Assembly: GCA_944391565.1 (NCBI GenBank)
Contig: CALXUB010000005.1
Span: 1 to 64,000, forward strand
Source of the DNA: an uncultured Alphaproteobacteria bacterium
Lineage (GTDB): Bacteria > Pseudomonadota > Alphaproteobacteria > CAAHEQ01 > UBA3637
DNA length: 64,000 nt
Direction: 5' to 3'
The notes below the pieces were generated by a model. The model was not told the origin of the DNA. It worked only from the letters and a program-made list of their open reading frames with translations, and searched no databases. Numbering within the stretch: position 1 is the stretch's first letter; each line of letters starts with the position of its first letter. The translations under genes and the position numbers were made by a program. This document shows positions 1-64,000 of the stretch, piece after piece.

Positions 1-12
1 CCCCCCCCCCCC
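1..12 (+). repeat. Poly-C tract, truncated by window start
   Basis: At least 12 consecutive C at the window edge, inside the leader-coding part of a cysteine-rich secreted gene. The flanking sequence TGTTCTCCTCGTTAACCTAA is identical to that after the 15-C tract at 49297. It is a likely slippage-prone site; its full length is not visible. Confidence 0.8.
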
Positions 13-628
13 TGTTCTCCTCGTTAACCTAAATATCTGCTTCTGTTTTTCTTTTCCTGCTCACCCTAAAATCATTCAAAGAAAAATTCACATGGTCTTT
101 CAAGAACATGAGTCTGCTTATTGGGACGGATCTAAAGGTGTCTGCTGTGATAAAACCGTTAAAAAAGTAGCCAATGAAAACAGATATGCTTGCTGTGAAG
201 AATGGCAAAATGCTTATCTTTATGATGGCAGGGTTTTATGTTGTAATAATGATCCGAACGAGTATGACGGCCTATGTTGTACATCTGAAAACATCATTGC
301 CACACCGTCTAAGACCTGCACGGGTAAAAATTGTGAGAAAACAGAATACACTTGCGGCGGAAATGCTGCCTGCACAGACGGAGAAACCTGGGGCATAACA
401 CGTACTTATATTCTTCAGGGTGATACTTATCATCAAACAACTACAAATTACGGATGCATTGCTTCCAATTGGAAAAGTTGCCAACGACATGTCGCCACAG
501 ATGTGACTTGCTGGTGTGACTCTTCAGGAGAAAACTGCATTAACGGATGTGATGTTTACGAAACCTGCGCTAACGGCGAGCAACCATGGTTGGAATATGG
601 GGATGATACTTGTGTTTGCAATTGGTAA
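1..628 (+). CDS. Cysteine-rich secreted protein, copy 1 (5' end outside window)
   Basis: The frame is open from the window edge through a poly-C run (1-12) to TAA at 626-628. After the C run it encodes a hydrophobic stretch (VLLVNLNICFCFSFPAH), then KIIQRKIHMVFQEHESAYWD, then a cysteine-rich body with many CC pairs. The stretch after the C run matches the signal-peptide region of the copies at 49275 and 63473, so the true start is upstream of the window and the ATG at 92 is internal. The usual AxA-like cleavage site is degenerate here (PAHP), and the first cysteine of the MVCQEHE motif is Phe. Function is unknown; export is inferred from the leader. The on/off state cannot be judged because the tract length is cut by the window. 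Confidence 0.75.
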   Translation, partial: PPPPVLLVNLNICFCFSFPAHPKIIQRKIHMVFQEHESAYWDGSKGVCCDKTVKKVANENRYACCEEWQNAYLYDGRVLCCNNDPNEYDGLCCTSENIIATPSKTCTGKNCEKTEYTCGGNAACTDGETWGITRTYILQGDTYHQTTTNYGCIASNWKSCQRHVATDVTCWCDSSGENCINGCDVYETCANGEQPWLEYGDDTCVCNW

Positions 629-9622: not shown

Positions 9623-11376
9623 ATGTGTCTTGTCCCCCCCCCCCCCACTCAAAAAGTCTTTTAAAACAATATATTAAATCTTTTTCAGGCCGTTCAACAC
9701 TAGAAATTTTAGGTGTCCTGGCGATTATCGGCTTGTTGAGCGTAGCGGCATTGGCGGGGTTTACTTATGCCATGAACAAACACAAGGCCAATGAGACCAT
9801 CCACGATGTCATGCTCAGGGCCTCCAACGTTCCCATGATTGATGAGTTTTATACACAGAGAACGGGCGACTATGAATGGATGTTCGCGGGGTTGCCTGAC
9901 AGCGGGCAAACGGGCTCTTTTTATACCATGAACACTTGGGTTTCCGACATTAACGGATACATTTACCGTGTTGTGGTTTCTGATGTTCCCAAACGGGTCT
10001 GTCGTCAAATTTTGGCTTTGGATCCGACCGACATTGACGCCATTTATGTGGAAGGAGACAAACCGACCGATGATGAATGTCCGAACGAAGTAAACAGAAT
10101 GGCTTTTTACTTTGATGAATACGGGACGGGCGGACATTTGCCGGACATTGACAAACCCGATCCAGATGATCCAAACCCGGACAATCCAGATCCGGATAAC
10201 CCGGACCCGGATCAACCAGAATGCACGCCGGCTTGCGGGTCTTGTGAAGAATGCGTCAATGGTTCTTGTCAGGTCAAGGCATGTGAGATAGAAAGCTGTC
10301 CGGAAGGGCAAACGTCTACAGGCACCGACACTTGCGGATGTATCATGGGTTGTCAAGAAAAATGTCCGGGGTTGACGTGTGAGGACTGCGAAGTCCCGAA
10401 CTATGACACTTGCACCTGTGATGCGGATCCTGATCCCTGCTGCGGCTTGGAAGGAGCAGCGTTGACTTGCTGTCAAGGCGGATTAACCTGTGGAAACTGT
10501 GAACTTCCTAACTATAACACTTGCACCTGTGTGGCTGATACCTCTTGCAGCTGTGAAGAACGAGGCGGAGAAACCATCCCTTATTTGAGAGGCGTATGTT
10601 GTGAACAGCCTGCTACATGTTGCAGTTTAGATGAAAACTGCACAGCTGAGGCTTGCGAAATCACAGATGAAACTCAATGCGGCGTATTCTGCACAGATGG
10701 TGCTCAGACTACCTCCGTGTGTTGCACGGCGGTCTCCATGGACGGGGACGAGCCTGAAAACCACGTATGGGTCGGCGATCCCTACGGTGATGGTTATTGC
10801 TGCAAAAGCAAAAACGAAAACGAAGACTGCTGCAAAGCCGCAGGTGATACTTGGACAAACGGAACTTGTGGTAGTTGTAATTCAGAAACTCAACATTCAT
10901 GAACAAACGATACTGATACATGGTGCTGTAATGTCGGACAGTCGTGCGGAAATAAAATAGGAGTATGTGATGAATGCAATGCTAAGTCCGCGGAAAATGA
11001 TGAAACTCTTTGTAAAAAATGCGGATGGGATTGGACCTACGCGGCTTACTGGAAAGGTGAGCCTTACTATGATCCTCTGTGCGGCGGAACGGCTTTCTGT
11101 CGAGCAAGATATGGCACCGCAACTTGGGATCTTATGCAACAAAATGGTGATTTCTACTATTATGCCTGTGCAGGAGATGGCTACTGCAAAGATCAATATG
11201 GAGCAGGTTCTTGGGGACTTCAAAAAACAGACCCTTCTCAAAATTTGGTTTGGTATGGCTGCACAGGAGATGACTATTGCCAAGCAATAGATATGGGCGG
11301 ATGCTGGGTTCAAGATCCCGATGGAGATGATACAGGCACCTATGTCAGTTATGGTTGTGGAGCCTGTTCTGGTTAA
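9623..11376 (+). pseudogene. Phase-variable cysteine-rich pilin-like gene, off-frame and with an in-frame TGA
   Basis: ATG 9623 has GAGG at 9611-9614. With the present 13-C tract its frame ends at TAA 9662-9664; 11 or 14 C would join it to the long frame. That frame can start at GTG 9625 and encodes a prepilin-like N-terminus (SGRSTLEILGVLAIIGLLSV; Glu at +5 if cut after Gly), then a globular part, an Asp-Pro linker (PDPDDPNPDNPDPDNPD) and a cysteine-rich body. The frame meets TGA at 10900-10902, yet stays open and cysteine-rich in the same frame to TAA 11374-11376. The N-terminus closely matches the 1230-residue protein at 27695. Likely a surface or pilus-associated protein; currently off or truncated. 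Confidence 0.75.
9634..9646 (+). repeat. Poly-C tract, 13 C, four codons after the start
   Basis: Thirteen consecutive C between ATGTGTCTTGT and ACTCAAAAAG. From ATG 9623, the downstream pilin frame needs a tract length of 2 modulo 3, so 13 is out of frame. GTG 9625 is in frame at 13. It is a likely slipped-strand switching site. Confidence 0.85.
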
Positions 11377-27694: not shown

Positions 27695-30600
27695 TCATTC
27701 ATCCTCAATTGTATCTTCTGGATGACCTTGAACAATTTTAATTTCTCTTTTGACCGTATGGCAGGAAACTCCCCCGCTGCCGGTATAATACGGATATCCG
27801 CGGTCCGGACAACAAGCTTCATGGTTAGCCCAACCGATGACATCCAAATGATCGCTGGTATAGCAACATTCTGGTTCGGATGCACCATAAGCCAACATAA
27901 TGTTAGCATGAGCAAATGTTCCGTCGCCGCCGTATTCAGTCCAATCTTGACAGCATTTTTCTTCTTCATACCATCTTATACCGCGCCATGTAAATGGATG
28001 CAGACAATCAGAGAAGTTACCACGGCATTTATGAACGGAGGCATATCCTTCATTGCAACACCAAATAGCGATACCCGTATCATCAGCCTTTTCTCCTGAG
28101 TCAAAAGCATTTGCAGCGCCCGGACGAACAGGTGCTAAACCTTCAGGACAAGGACTACCTTTGGGTTCACATCCGTTATCTCCGCACATTTCATTTTCAC
28201 CACAGCAGATTCCGTCGCAACAATCTTGTCCCGTTGGACAACAAGTTTCTCCGCAACAAAAATGCGTTTCTGTATCACAGCATTCATTTTCGCAGACAAG
28301 GTAGCCTTCCTGGAAAACGCAGATGCCGTCAAGGCACTCATAGCAGGTACCGCAATCGTCGGCCGTTTCACACACACACTCATCCGTATTCCATTGTTGG
28401 CAGACCAGTGTTAAATCGTCAGAACAAGTGTAAGTATAGTCTTCCAAAACGGCGCCTGTACACGGTTCTTCTCCGGGTTCAGGGCAAGTGCAACAATCAG
28501 GGTCTGCTACGCAAGTTGGACATCCGTTTGCGTCAGTTCCTTCGATTTCGCATTCACCGCATGGAGAAGAGAGGGGATCACAGCAAACACCGCCGTTACC
28601 GCAGGTTTGTCCTTCTGAACAACATTCTCCACCGCAGCAAGCATGACCCACTGCACAGCAGCTATCTCCGCCGCAACAGAATTGATTGGCCGCTACACAA
28701 CACTCGCTACCGCATGAGAACTGATCCGTTTCACACGGTTCACACACCGGGCAGCCACAGCTATCGCTCCCGACTTGTCGAGAACCGGACAGACATGTAT
28801 CTCCTTCAGGACATGCGTTTTTCACATATCCTGCCGGACAATCAATACCGCAAATTTGATCGCCGCTTGTTTGTGTATAACATTCCGGATTACTGGGTAG
28901 ATCAGGCACCGTCTCCGGACATTCCCGCGACACACATTCGTCGCCACACTCTCCCCATGCAGCGCAGCAAGTTCCTAAGAACTCATCACAACACTCGCCA
29001 CTGTACATGTCCGTTTCTCCGCTCGGACATTCGCAGTTTTCTTTGGTCGGTGTGCATCCGCAGTCTTCCCAAGCCGGACAGCAGCCTTCAGACGCCACCG
29101 TTTCACAACAATCGCCGCTGTATTTTGTCACTGTCTCGACCGGACAGACGCATGTTTCCGCCGGCTTGCAATCTACTTCACAAGAAGAAGTTGCCGGGCA
29201 ACATGCTTGAACAGCCGATCCGTCGCAGCACTCCGAGATATCTATTTCAATATATCCGATTTCGGTGTATCCGCTCGGACAGTCAACTCCGCAAACCGTT
29301 GTGCCGGCCGACACTTCTTCACAACAACCCGACTCACATGTCGCACTGACCGTCGGACATGTAGCCTGCGTGCAACTATGGCAATCATTGCCATCCAACG
29401 GACAACAAGATTGAACAACGGAGCCGTCACAACATTGTGAGACATCTTGTTGTTCACTTAAATCCGCACTACACACGCCACTGCTTAAACACTGACGGCA
29501 GCCCTCACAATCGGCATCCGTTTCGCAAGAAACGATTGGTTCACACACCGGGCAGCCACATGTGTCCGTCCCGGTTTCTTGTTCATTTGCCGAACAGGGT
29601 GTGCAGGACTTCTTATAATAACCGCTGCCTTGACAGACCTCCCCGCAAACCTCGCCGGAACCACCGATCACTTCTTCATAACACAACGGATCTTCCCCAC
29701 TCGGCACCTCACTCAAAAGATCGTCACATGTAGCCTGCGTGCAAGAACAGTCTTCCCAACGCGGGCAACAGGCGGCATTTTCCGTTATATCGCAGCACTT
29801 GCCCGTCATTTTTGCAACCGTCTCCACAGGACACGTGTCACACGTTTCTTGCGGTGTACATCCGCAGTCTTCCCAAGTCGGACAGCAACCTTCAAACGCC
29901 GCCGTCTCGCAACAATCGCCGCTGTATTTTGTCACCGTCGTGACCGGACATGTGCCGCAGTCCCACCGTTCACACGTCAGGCGTTCGCCATTTGAACACG
30001 TGTAAAAATAACTGACCAACGAACCTTCCTCACACGGTGAAGCTCCGGGATCCGGGCATGAACAACAATCGGGACACCCACACGCGTCCTTGCCGATTTC
30101 CGCTGATCCGCTCGGACAAGGTTCACATGATTTTTTGCGATACCCGCCCTGTTGACAAACCGTGCCGCAAACTTCTTCGCCGGCCGATACACTGTCATAA
30201 CAAGCCGCGCTTTCCCCGCTTGGAATCGAAGTGACAATATCAGAACACGAGCCCGCCGTGCACGAACAATCTTCATCCAAAGAACAGCATGCTGCCGTCG
30301 CACTGCCGTCACAGCAGTCAGAATAATCTTTTCGAACAACTTTACTGACACACAAACTGTCCTCACAAGCCGAGCATCCCAAACAATCATCACTTGTTTC
30401 ACACGGACAAGCGCTCCAACGTTGACATGTCAAATTTTGACCATCAGCACAAGCATAGGTATATTCTTCCGTCACCGCCTCATTGCACAAACGAGACCCC
30501 ATCTCGGGACAAACACACGCCCGCGGCGCACAGGTACACGTTGTTTCATCAAACGCATCTTCGGGACCACAATCCGGCGCCGGATCACACCTCGTCTCCT

Positions 30601-31387
30601 GACAGCTGACATGACATCCGTCCTCGTCATACACCTTAATCTCGTTGCTTCCACAGACAGGCGCAACAGGACACGTCTTTCCTTCACACGCCGGCGGACA
30701 ACCTTCCACTAATGGATTAATACAACATTCCCCTGTATATTCACAATTGTCCCCATACTGATATTCAACCGTCTCTAAACAATTCTCATCCGGAACGGGT
30801 AATGGTGGATCCGGTGGGACAAATCCACAACCAGGCAAATTATAGTTCGCTTTACAACGGCCTTGGAAACATTCTTGACAGCTGCTGCAATCCGAATCCG
30901 ACGTACAATGCTTCTCAAAATAAAATGTCATCAACGTTTGTTCCGATGCATCCGCATGCGTCGTGCATAAATCCCACGCCCCGCGCGTGTAAACCTCTTT
31001 ATTCTCCCCGATTCGTATCTCGTCTATGTCCGTCGGCTCTAACCGCAAAATCATATTACATACTCGATACGGTATCGCTAACGCTTCCACTTTATATACA
31101 TACCCGTATTCCGCATTCTTCAACGTGTTCAACGTATACCCCATCGTCGATAACTCATTCTGCAAATCAGGAAATTTAAACGCATGTCCCGTCGGACGCG
31201 TCTGATAAAACTCATCCGTCATCGGAACGTTCGCCGCACGCAACATCACATCGTGTATCGTCTCGTTCGCTCGATGCTTGTTCATCGCATACGTGAAACC
31301 AAATAATGCCGCTACGCTCAAAACGCCTATTAAAACCAATACGCCCAGCATCTCAATCATGCTGCGACCGTTTTGTTTCTTCTTCAT
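27695..31387 (-). CDS. Giant cysteine-rich protein with prepilin-like N-terminus
   Basis: The 1230 residues start MKKKQNGRSMIEMLGVLVLI, a class III prepilin-like leader: cutting after Gly leaves RSMIE with Glu at +5, then a hydrophobic helix. Residues about 40-150 form a conserved head shared with the gene at 9623 (TIHDVMLRA, VPMTDEFY, PTDID). The rest is very Cys-rich with diverged modules, for example CPVxTVxKxxGxCCxxxxxExCCPxWEDC and a VCGxxCxxGYxKxxC type. Many CC pairs suggest dense disulfides in an extracellular stalk or adhesin. No sortase signal or membrane anchor at the C-terminus. Function is inferred only as pilus-like or surface. Confidence 0.85.
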   Translation of the reverse strand: MKKKQNGRSMIEMLGVLVLIGVLSVAALFGFTYAMNKHRANETIHDVMLRAANVPMTDEFYQTRPTGHAFKFPDLQNELSTMGYTLNTLKNAEYGYVYKVEALAIPYRVCNMILRLEPTDIDEIRIGENKEVYTRGAWDLCTTHADASEQTLMTFYFEKHCTSDSDCSSCQECFQGRCKANYNLPGCGFVPPDPPLPVPDENCLETVEYQYGDNCEYTGECCINPLVEGCPPACEGKTCPVAPVCGSNEIKVYDEDGCHVSCQETRCDPAPDCGPEDAFDETTCTCAPRACVCPEMGSRLCNEAVTEEYTYACADGQNLTCQRWSACPCETSDDCLGCSACEDSLCVSKVVRKDYSDCCDGSATAACCSLDEDCSCTAGSCSDIVTSIPSGESAACYDSVSAGEEVCGTVCQQGGYRKKSCEPCPSGSAEIGKDACGCPDCCSCPDPGASPCEEGSLVSYFYTCSNGERLTCERWDCGTCPVTTVTKYSGDCCETAAFEGCCPTWEDCGCTPQETCDTCPVETVAKMTGKCCDITENAACCPRWEDCSCTQATCDDLLSEVPSGEDPLCYEEVIGGSGEVCGEVCQGSGYYKKSCTPCSANEQETGTDTCGCPVCEPIVSCETDADCEGCRQCLSSGVCSADLSEQQDVSQCCDGSVVQSCCPLDGNDCHSCTQATCPTVSATCESGCCEEVSAGTTVCGVDCPSGYTEIGYIEIDISECCDGSAVQACCPATSSCEVDCKPAETCVCPVETVTKYSGDCCETVASEGCCPAWEDCGCTPTKENCECPSGETDMYSGECCDEFLGTCCAAWGECGDECVSRECPETVPDLPSNPECYTQTSGDQICGIDCPAGYVKNACPEGDTCLSGSRQVGSDSCGCPVCEPCETDQFSCGSECCVAANQFCCGGDSCCAVGHACCGGECCSEGQTCGNGGVCCDPLSSPCGECEIEGTDANGCPTCVADPDCCTCPEPGEEPCTGAVLEDYTYTCSDDLTLVCQQWNTDECVCETADDCGTCYECLDGICVFQEGYLVCENECCDTETHFCCGETCCPTGQDCCDGICCGENEMCGDNGCEPKGSPCPEGLAPVRPGAANAFDSGEKADDTGIAIWCCNEGYASVHKCRGNFSDCLHPFTWRGIRWYEEEKCCQDWTEYGGDGTFAHANIMLAYGASEPECCYTSDHLDVIGWANHEACCPDRGYPYYTGSGGVSCHTVKREIKIVQGHPEDTIEDE

Positions 31388-49214: not shown

Positions 49215-49244
49215 TAGACAAACAAACTACAAATCTGCTATCAT
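49215..49244 (+). promoter_or_regulatory. Conserved promoter of cysteine-rich gene copy 2
   Basis: TAGACA at 49215-49220, 18-bp spacer, TATCAT at 49239-49244. The same arrangement (TGGACA, 18 bp, TATCAT) lies before copy 3 at 63413-63442. Conservation between copies supports function. Confidence 0.6.
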
Positions 49245-49274: not shown

Positions 49275-49891
49275 ATGTTCACTTTAACCAAAATTACCCC
49301 CCCCCCCCCCCTGTTCTCCTCGTTAACCTAACCATCTGCCTCTGTTTCTCTCTCCCCGTCCAAGCTAAAATCATTCAAAGAAAAATGCACATGGTCTGTC
49401 AAGAGCATGAGTCTGCTTATTGGGACGGATCTAAAGGTGTCTGCTGTGACAAATCAATCAAACAAGTTGCCAATGAAAACAGGTATGCTTGCTGCGAAGA
49501 ATGGCAAAACGCTTATCTTTACAACAACGCCGTCGTTTGCTGCAACCAAGACCCAAACACGACACCGGCACACAAATGCTGCACGGAAGAAAACGCTCAA
49601 CCGTATTACAAAGATATTTACTCGGATTGTGCCACTTGCGGTGAAGTAGATTGCTGTACCGGAACTGTTTATTGCACAGGAAATTTGTTCGGTGAGGTGT
49701 GTGGTGGCTGGAGTGAACATCAATATGCGTGCTGTCCGGCGGGAGGAACCGTATTTGCCAGCTTAGGAGATGACAGTGATGGGTTTATTTTTGCCTACAA
49801 CTGTTGTCCGACGGGCAAAACGATCGGTGAAAAAACCTATATGGATTTCGGTGAGGGCCCCACGTCCCAATGGTCAAGAAGTTGTTTTTAA
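49275..49891 (+). CDS. Cysteine-rich secreted protein, copy 2 (phase OFF)
   Basis: ATG 49275 has AAGGAG upstream. With 15 C in the tract, its frame ends at TAA 49329-49331 after 18 codons (MFTLTKITPPPPLFSSLT). The long frame, open through the tract to 49891, encodes VLLVNLTICLCFSLPVQA, a signal-peptide core with a VQA cleavage site, then KIIQRKMHMVCQEH and a Cys-rich body with CC pairs about every 15-25 residues. Tract lengths of 1 modulo 3 (13, 16) would restore the fusion. An internal ATG at 49385 lacks the signal peptide and a good ribosome site. Residues up to about 45 of the mature part closely match copy 1. Confidence 0.85.
49297..49311 (+). repeat. Poly-C tract, 15 C, in the signal-peptide coding region
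   Basis: Fifteen consecutive C, starting eight codons after ATG 49275. Out of frame by the rule derived from copy 3 (needs 1 modulo 3). Confidence 0.9.
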
Positions 49892-63412: not shown

Positions 63413-63442
63413 TGGACAAATAAACTACAAATCCGCTATCAT
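63413..63442 (+). promoter_or_regulatory. Conserved promoter of cysteine-rich gene copy 3
   Basis: TGGACA at 63413-63418, 18-bp spacer, TATCAT at 63437-63442, matching copy 2. Confidence 0.6.
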
Positions 63443-63472
63443 ACCTTTAGAACATATGAAAGGAGCTTAATC

Positions 63473-64000
63473 ATGTTCACTTTAAACAAAATTACCCCCC
63501 CCCCCCCTGCTTTAAATAACCTTTTCAACTACTTAATCCTCTTCTCCATCATTACCCTTCCCGCTCAAGCCAAAATCATTCAAAGAAAAATGCACATGGT
63601 CTGTCAAGAACATGAATCTGCTTATTGGGATGGATCGAAAGGTGTCTGTTGTGATGGAAACGTATATCAACCTGATACTGAAAACACCTCTTTTGCATGT
63701 TGTCCTACTGGAAAAGAAGTCTCTATTGTCCAAGGTAAAGAAAACCTCAACCACTGTTGCTCAGAAGGACAAAAGGCTTATTGGAACGGATCTTCTGCCC
63801 AGTGCTGTGCGACCGCAACGCATCAGATCGTCACTAACTATATCAGTGGACAAACCGATACCGCTTACGCATGCTGCGAAATTAAAGAAGATACATATTC
63901 AGAAAGAATAGACACAGAATTTGATGAAAAATACACTAACTCATTTACTGGTTATACCGTCGCTGGCGCCATCAACAACTCTTGCTGCGGCGGATACTCT
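63473..64000 (+). CDS. Cysteine-rich secreted protein, copy 3 (phase ON, 3' end outside window)
   Basis: ATG 63473, with AGGAG upstream, reads in frame through a 13-C tract and on to the window end without a stop. The leader is MFTLNKITPPPPA followed by LNNLFNYLILFSIITLPAQA, cut before KIIQRKMHMVCQEH. The mature part is Cys-rich with CC pairs (FACCPTG, HCCSEGQ, QCCATA, YACCEI, SCCGG). The mature N-terminus is shared with copies 1 and 2, then diverges quickly. A proline run inside a signal peptide is unusual. Export by Sec is inferred; the function is unknown. Confidence 0.85.
   Translation, partial: MFTLNKITPPPPALNNLFNYLILFSIITLPAQAKIIQRKMHMVCQEHESAYWDGSKGVCCDGNVYQPDTENTSFACCPTGKEVSIVQGKENLNHCCSEGQKAYWNGSSAQCCATATHQIVTNYISGQTDTAYACCEIKEDTYSERIDTEFDEKYTNSFTGYTVAGAINNSCCGGYS
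63495..63507 (+). repeat. Poly-C tract, 13 C, in the signal-peptide coding region
   Basis: Thirteen C, eight codons after ATG 63473. This length keeps the ATG in frame with the signal peptide and mature protein. Confidence 0.9.

Follow-up and report, generated by a model that had tools for sequence, protein, structure and literature searches.

The C tract at 63495-63507, inside the signal-peptide region of a Cys-rich protein gene (Table 1), is a real feature and most likely a slipped-strand phase-variation switch within a large phasome. We put the probability that it is such a switch, and that it belongs to a phasome with about 60 poly-C/G tracts, at roughly 0.85. The window, i.e. the whole stretch of 64,000 nucleotides analysed here, corresponds to the start of contig C5 (its first 64 kb) in a draft MAG (G000) that comprises 1,268,233 bases in 37 contigs. 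Homopolymer phase switches are well documented in Neisseria and other bacteria.

By codon count, ATG 63473, 22 nt and 13 C lead into the frame of ALNNLFNYLILFSIITLPAQA, followed by KIIQRK..., with a predicted signal peptide cut between LPAQA and K. The ORF has 276 codons, 18 of them for Cys, and is still open at the window end, reaching its end at C5:64303. The preliminary description of this DNA had claimed an in-frame start with 13 C, an LPAQA cut and a Cys-rich protein open to the window end, and the count bears all of this out. By frame, 10, 13 or 16 C correspond to the ON state, and 9, 11, 12, 14, 15 or 17 C yield peptides of 12-16 codons. The promoter-like pair, a consensus match that is conserved in 13 aligned paralogous leaders, lies upstream of the tract and the gene thus lacks a promoter-spacer arrangement of the opc/porA type. 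It had also been proposed that a switch within the signal peptide decides export as well as expression. The tract does lie between n- and h-region, but the export part was overstated: as the tract precedes the hydrophobic core, loss of the frame would abolish the whole protein and export would be no separate decision. At this gene no other well-placed start was seen from which an unexported form could be made; the only candidate is an ATG past the signal, with a weak purine stretch in front of it.

Table 1. Features of the window (ON and OFF as predicted from the assembled tract length).
Feature	Position	Strand	Basis or location
Cys-rich secreted protein gene (predicted), ON as assembled	63473..64000, stop C5:64301-64303	+	sequence reading
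C13 switch tract (predicted)	63495..63507	+	between signal-peptide n-region and h-region
Promoter-like pair of conserved leader: TGGACA (63413-63418), 18-nt spacer, TATCAT (63437-63442)	63413..63442	+	
Shine-Dalgarno AAGGAG, 7 nt 5' of ATG 63473	63460..63465	+	
Second Cys-rich copy, OFF as assembled, stop after 18 codons	49275..49891	+	sequence reading
C15 switch tract (predicted) of second copy; 10, 13 or 16 C would be ON	49297..49311	+	
Leader promoter-like pair of second copy: TAGACA, 18 nt, TATCAT	49215..49244	+	
Third Cys-rich copy, cut by contig start; tract 1-12 (at least 12 C), frame to 628	1..628	+	
Pseudopilin-like (GRSTLEILGVLAIIGLLSVAALAGFTYAMNKH) Cys-rich gene with C13 tract 9634-9646	9623..10902	+	
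Pseudopilin-like Cys-rich paralogue, 1230 aa, without tract	27695..31387	-	

The copy at 49275 shares with the gene at 63473 a long homopolymer early in the coding region and a full product in only one frame of three; its frame past the tract is intact over 192 codons. That this copy has 15 C and is out of frame, as had been claimed, was confirmed. The two copies had been taken to represent the two states predicted for slipped-strand phase variation; their tract lengths are compatible with switching, but paralogues in a single assembly do not show it. The preliminary description had covered neither the C tract at position 1, nor the C13 tract at 9634-9646, nor the class of promoter tracts described below. 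Position 1 is the contig start and lies inside a C tract, where the ON/OFF state of the third copy is unreadable. Overlapping C9 matches number 21 in the window versus 0.35 expected from shuffles.

The pseudopilin-like gene at 9623 is OFF from ATG 9623 and would be ON with 11, 14 or 17 C. It is in frame from an overlapping GTG (9625), which could hold the gene on while the ATG frame is off. This gene also contains an in-frame TGA (10900-10902), behind which the frame continues open for 157 more Cys-rich codons; the TGA may be a nonsense mutation, a sequencing error or the mark of a split gene. Since the paralogue at 27695 carries no tract, the switch is not present in every family member. The prepilin N-terminal methylation motif is visible; in the PF07963 profile, the 27695 protein alone gave a match, which at an E value of 0.014 and 15.4 bits stays below the cut-off of 21.2.

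Tabulation of the MAG gives 61 tracts of at least 9 C, mostly of 12-15 C; a pattern search returned 60 because the contig-start tract has no preceding base. Sequence was examined around the tracts and leaders and at selected genes used for comparison. Tracts of at least 11 C number 57, i.e. about 45 per Mb. In a sample of 387 alphaproteobacterial genomes, 182 contain any tract of at least 11 C and about half contain none; by our reading of the table, no genome of the sample exceeds the tract density of this MAG. A genome of the same family from another genus (G007) has 69 tracts in about 1.3 Mb.

One class of tracts (class A) lies inside signal peptides, as at 63473. The paralogues of this class have about 130-290 bp of upstream DNA in common, and TGGACA or TAGACA, 18 nt, TATCAT, AAAGGAG, ATGTTCACTTTAA, the tract and a hydrophobic stretch ending in AxA follow one another; behind AxA stands KIIQRKMHMVCQEHESAYWDGSKGVCC or a close variant. 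The preliminary description had proposed a genome-wide search for the shared leader next to C tracts, with tabulation of the frames. Thirteen aligned paralogues agree in leader, start and tract position, and copies of both kinds occur: by assembled length C4:253, C5:63495, C6:103, C11:4394, C11:19276, C14:5769 and C36:2428 are in frame, and C5:49297, C6:2970, C10:10749, C14:162 and C9:50456, the last with a mutated start, are out of frame. The OFF copies keep long open frames with a pairwise dN/dS of about 0.1-0.5, some dS values being near saturation, and judged by these ratios their intact frames are under purifying constraint. Two copies have interrupted tracts. In C11:18352 the tract reads C7-T-C5, a total of 13 with a synonymous CCT, and is in frame, so that this copy is apparently a locked-ON derivative. 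In C19 the tract reads C8-A-C6, is out of frame and is accompanied by an in-frame TAG. Both states agree with the prediction of the frame model.

Many of the other tracts (class B), read as G, are framed by a TTGACA -35 element and a -10-like box; the gene that follows is often pseudopilin-like, with a Cys-rich C-terminal part. In 43 of 107 tracts, drawn from four genomes, at least five of the six TTGACA positions are matched within 6 nt, versus 7.7 expected from shuffled flanks. Compared with an optimum of 17 nt, spacers of 17 and 18 nt are commonest, in a range of about 12-27, and several -10 boxes are poor; given this scatter and these poor boxes, some members of class B need not be functional promoters. 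Two tracts are located upstream of glycosyltransferase-like genes, and a few others, placed within the coding frame, come before the start region of a pseudopilin-like gene. At G000:C28:31038 a family-2-like glycosyltransferase gene has a C13 tract at its start and is out of frame from the ATG preceded by a ribosome-binding site. An intergenic C tract is conserved in three species with 11, 12 and 13 C (L168:2379, L147:2923, L125); it lies in the loop of a AAAAAAGGAAC...GTTCC hairpin, and in L168 an RNase HII-like gene lies downstream. A search for RNA families (Rfam) near two conserved intergenic tracts gave no match.

Orthologous tracts in sister species are better evidence of switching than a pair of paralogues from the same assembly. 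In G011 and G012, two closely related species of the same genus, the flanking DNA identifies six tract loci as orthologous. The comparison involves six tracts at assembled length, between species rather than strains, and the 63473 locus is not among the pairs. Five of the six pairs differ in length (12/10, 13/14, 13/12, 14/12 and 12/11 C) and one agrees (12/12), and in two pairs one species is predicted to be OFF and the other ON. The flanks are mostly 84-98% identical. With one recombined 3' part set aside, 11 indel events fall within about 5.2 kb of flank; this rate leaves out the non-homologous 3' ends of L155/L169, which had inflated a first count. At the flank indel rate, five of six differing tracts would have a probability of about 1e-7. 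The Cys-rich genes L155 and L169 are orthologous and 97.7% identical over the first 216 nt past the tract, after which they align poorly, and their 3' ends seem to have been exchanged.

The Cys-rich family of 63473 and 49275 occurs mostly in this genus and one neighbouring genus, with traces elsewhere, and profile searches gave no Pfam, NCBIfam or PDB match. A Cys-rich query gave no match among named genomes, and GatB matched alphaproteobacteria only, at 57-67% identity, which supports the class but neither a genus nor a habitat. In the mature protein the N-terminal part is conserved and the rest diverges in sequence and length. The AlphaFold model has a pLDDT of 58.8 and is confident only at about residues 11-70, where it contains short beta strands; Foldseek with this model, of low confidence overall, against the PDB returned no usable match. 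The signal peptides suggest that the Cys-rich proteins are secreted, and a role in surface or secreted display would be a guess from the cargo. An open Cys-rich homologue without a tract lies near mutS in both sister species (L283:3130-3756, L284:1967-2593).

The preliminary description had proposed a poly-C-switched Cys-rich secretome, and this proposal gains support on a larger scale, i.e. from 61 tracts, both states, a promoter class and length differences between orthologues. We infer that slippage occurs within populations and affects the expression of proteins with a secreted or surface role. At 63473, gain or loss of a single C by replication slippage would shift the frame between ATG TTC ACT TTA and the signal peptide with the Cys-rich protein, downstream of the conserved promoter-like pair and ribosome site. 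The protein would result from every third length (10, 13 or 16 C), and a peptide of 12-18 codons from all others. Signal-peptide tracts would in this way switch small secreted Cys-rich proteins. In the G runs of class B, a change in length would alter promoter spacing and hence transcription, mainly of pseudopilin-like Cys-rich genes. Together, the two classes would leave each cell with its own random selection of these proteins on display. With somewhat better than even odds, we picture a two-layer phasome, among the densest known per Mb and in an uncultured lineage without an identified known pathogen, that combines frame switches on secreted Cys-rich proteins with promoter-spacing switches on Cys-rich pseudopilin-like proteins. 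Each cell would then carry its own random mix of secreted or surface proteins, dozens in number and diversified further by recombination of 3' ends.

Homopolymers are error-prone in sequencing, and the tracts might be real while their exact lengths (13 versus 15 C), and hence the ON/OFF assignments, are sequencing or assembly artefacts, the loci perhaps all being ON or fixed. We regard this as unlikely, but as deserving serious attention. In this draft MAG, a tract is found no more than 300 bp away from 34 of the 74 contig ends; repeats, heterogeneous tract lengths or failed sequencing through C/G runs may account for this. The sequence past some contig-end tracts looks degraded (C6:12155 with n=25, C36:13195 with n=17, C32:45 with n=20). 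In Bifidobacterium breve, moreover, Illumina sequencing reportedly had trouble at G tracts and the reference length was unlike that of the population majority (PMC9187656). The tracts at 63495 and 49297, however, lie deep within a contig, tracts at the same positions recur in three species, and the interrupted C7-T-C5 copy matches the frame model in its total length.

Granting the lengths, out-of-frame alleles might still make some protein by transcriptional slippage or ribosomal frameshifting on the C run, so that the tract would tune expression rather than switch it. Polymerases can slip on homopolymers, and the constrained, intact frames of the OFF alleles would suit such leakage; yet the apparently locked-ON copy and the decayed OFF copy fit frame-dependent expression, and promoter-class tracts cannot work in this way, which makes tuning improbable as a general account. 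Still less probable, in our judgement, is a neutral origin, in which loss of mismatch repair lengthened the C runs and the OFF copies are young pseudogenes. It draws on the two tract-richest genomes of the family, as MutS was not found in G000 and MutL not found above cut-off in G007. Against it, G013 has no MutS match and G017 no MutL match, and both are without tracts; tracts are found repeatedly at functional positions; and orthologous tracts occur in sister species that possess both genes. Both queried genes that flank mutS in the sister species are missing from G000 as well, making an assembly gap equally likely. Most relatives of G000 and G007 have both MutS and MutL. As a cause of the tracts, loss of mismatch repair is thus suggestive but inseparable from assembly gaps, and we retain phase variation as the preferred reading.

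Most of the large phasomes known so far come from mucosal pathogens. If our reading is correct, a similar locus count in an uncultured alphaproteobacterium of 1.27 Mb suggests that contingency switching extends well outside the studied pathogens, here with switched protein families that lack a database match. Paralogues with one leader, varied tract lengths, a natural interrupted tract and orthologues in sister species would make this lineage a test bed, and gene callers will miss OFF copies or mis-start them. A literature search on poly-C tracts with alphaproteobacterial pilins, the coverage of which excludes most subscription papers and all preprints, returned no earlier description.

The closest precedent for a tract between a secretion signal and its protein is the sortase-pilus switch of B. 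breve, where a G tract parts the Sec-signal frame from the rest of the pilin and replication slippage joins the frames (PMC9187656). That organism is a Gram-positive gut commensal with a G tract at two loci and a pilin unrelated to the proteins described here, whereas the present genome has about 60 loci and many paralogues with one leader. The spacing effect proposed for class B resembles that of Neisseria opc and porA (PMC3447861, PMC2791445); in opc, porA and fetA a homopolymer between -10 and -35 alters expression, and Neisseria also has frame-shift tracts in coding genes, with up to 54 loci per genome (PMC3447861, PMC2791445, PMC5953494). Neisseria belongs to another class of Proteobacteria and switches other cargo, the density per Mb is higher here with only poly-C/G tracts surveyed, and the promoter tracts here, unlike those of Neisseria, often directly abut TTGACA. 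Bartonella, likewise alphaproteobacterial, has contingency loci with mononucleotide repeats near gene starts and ON/OFF variation between isolates, including a trimeric autotransporter adhesin, in an ancestor genome with far more A/T than G/C runs (PMC11466379); there the variation was shown experimentally, whereas here it is read from sequence. Taken together, the mechanism is a known one, and it is the lineage, the cargo and the density that look new.
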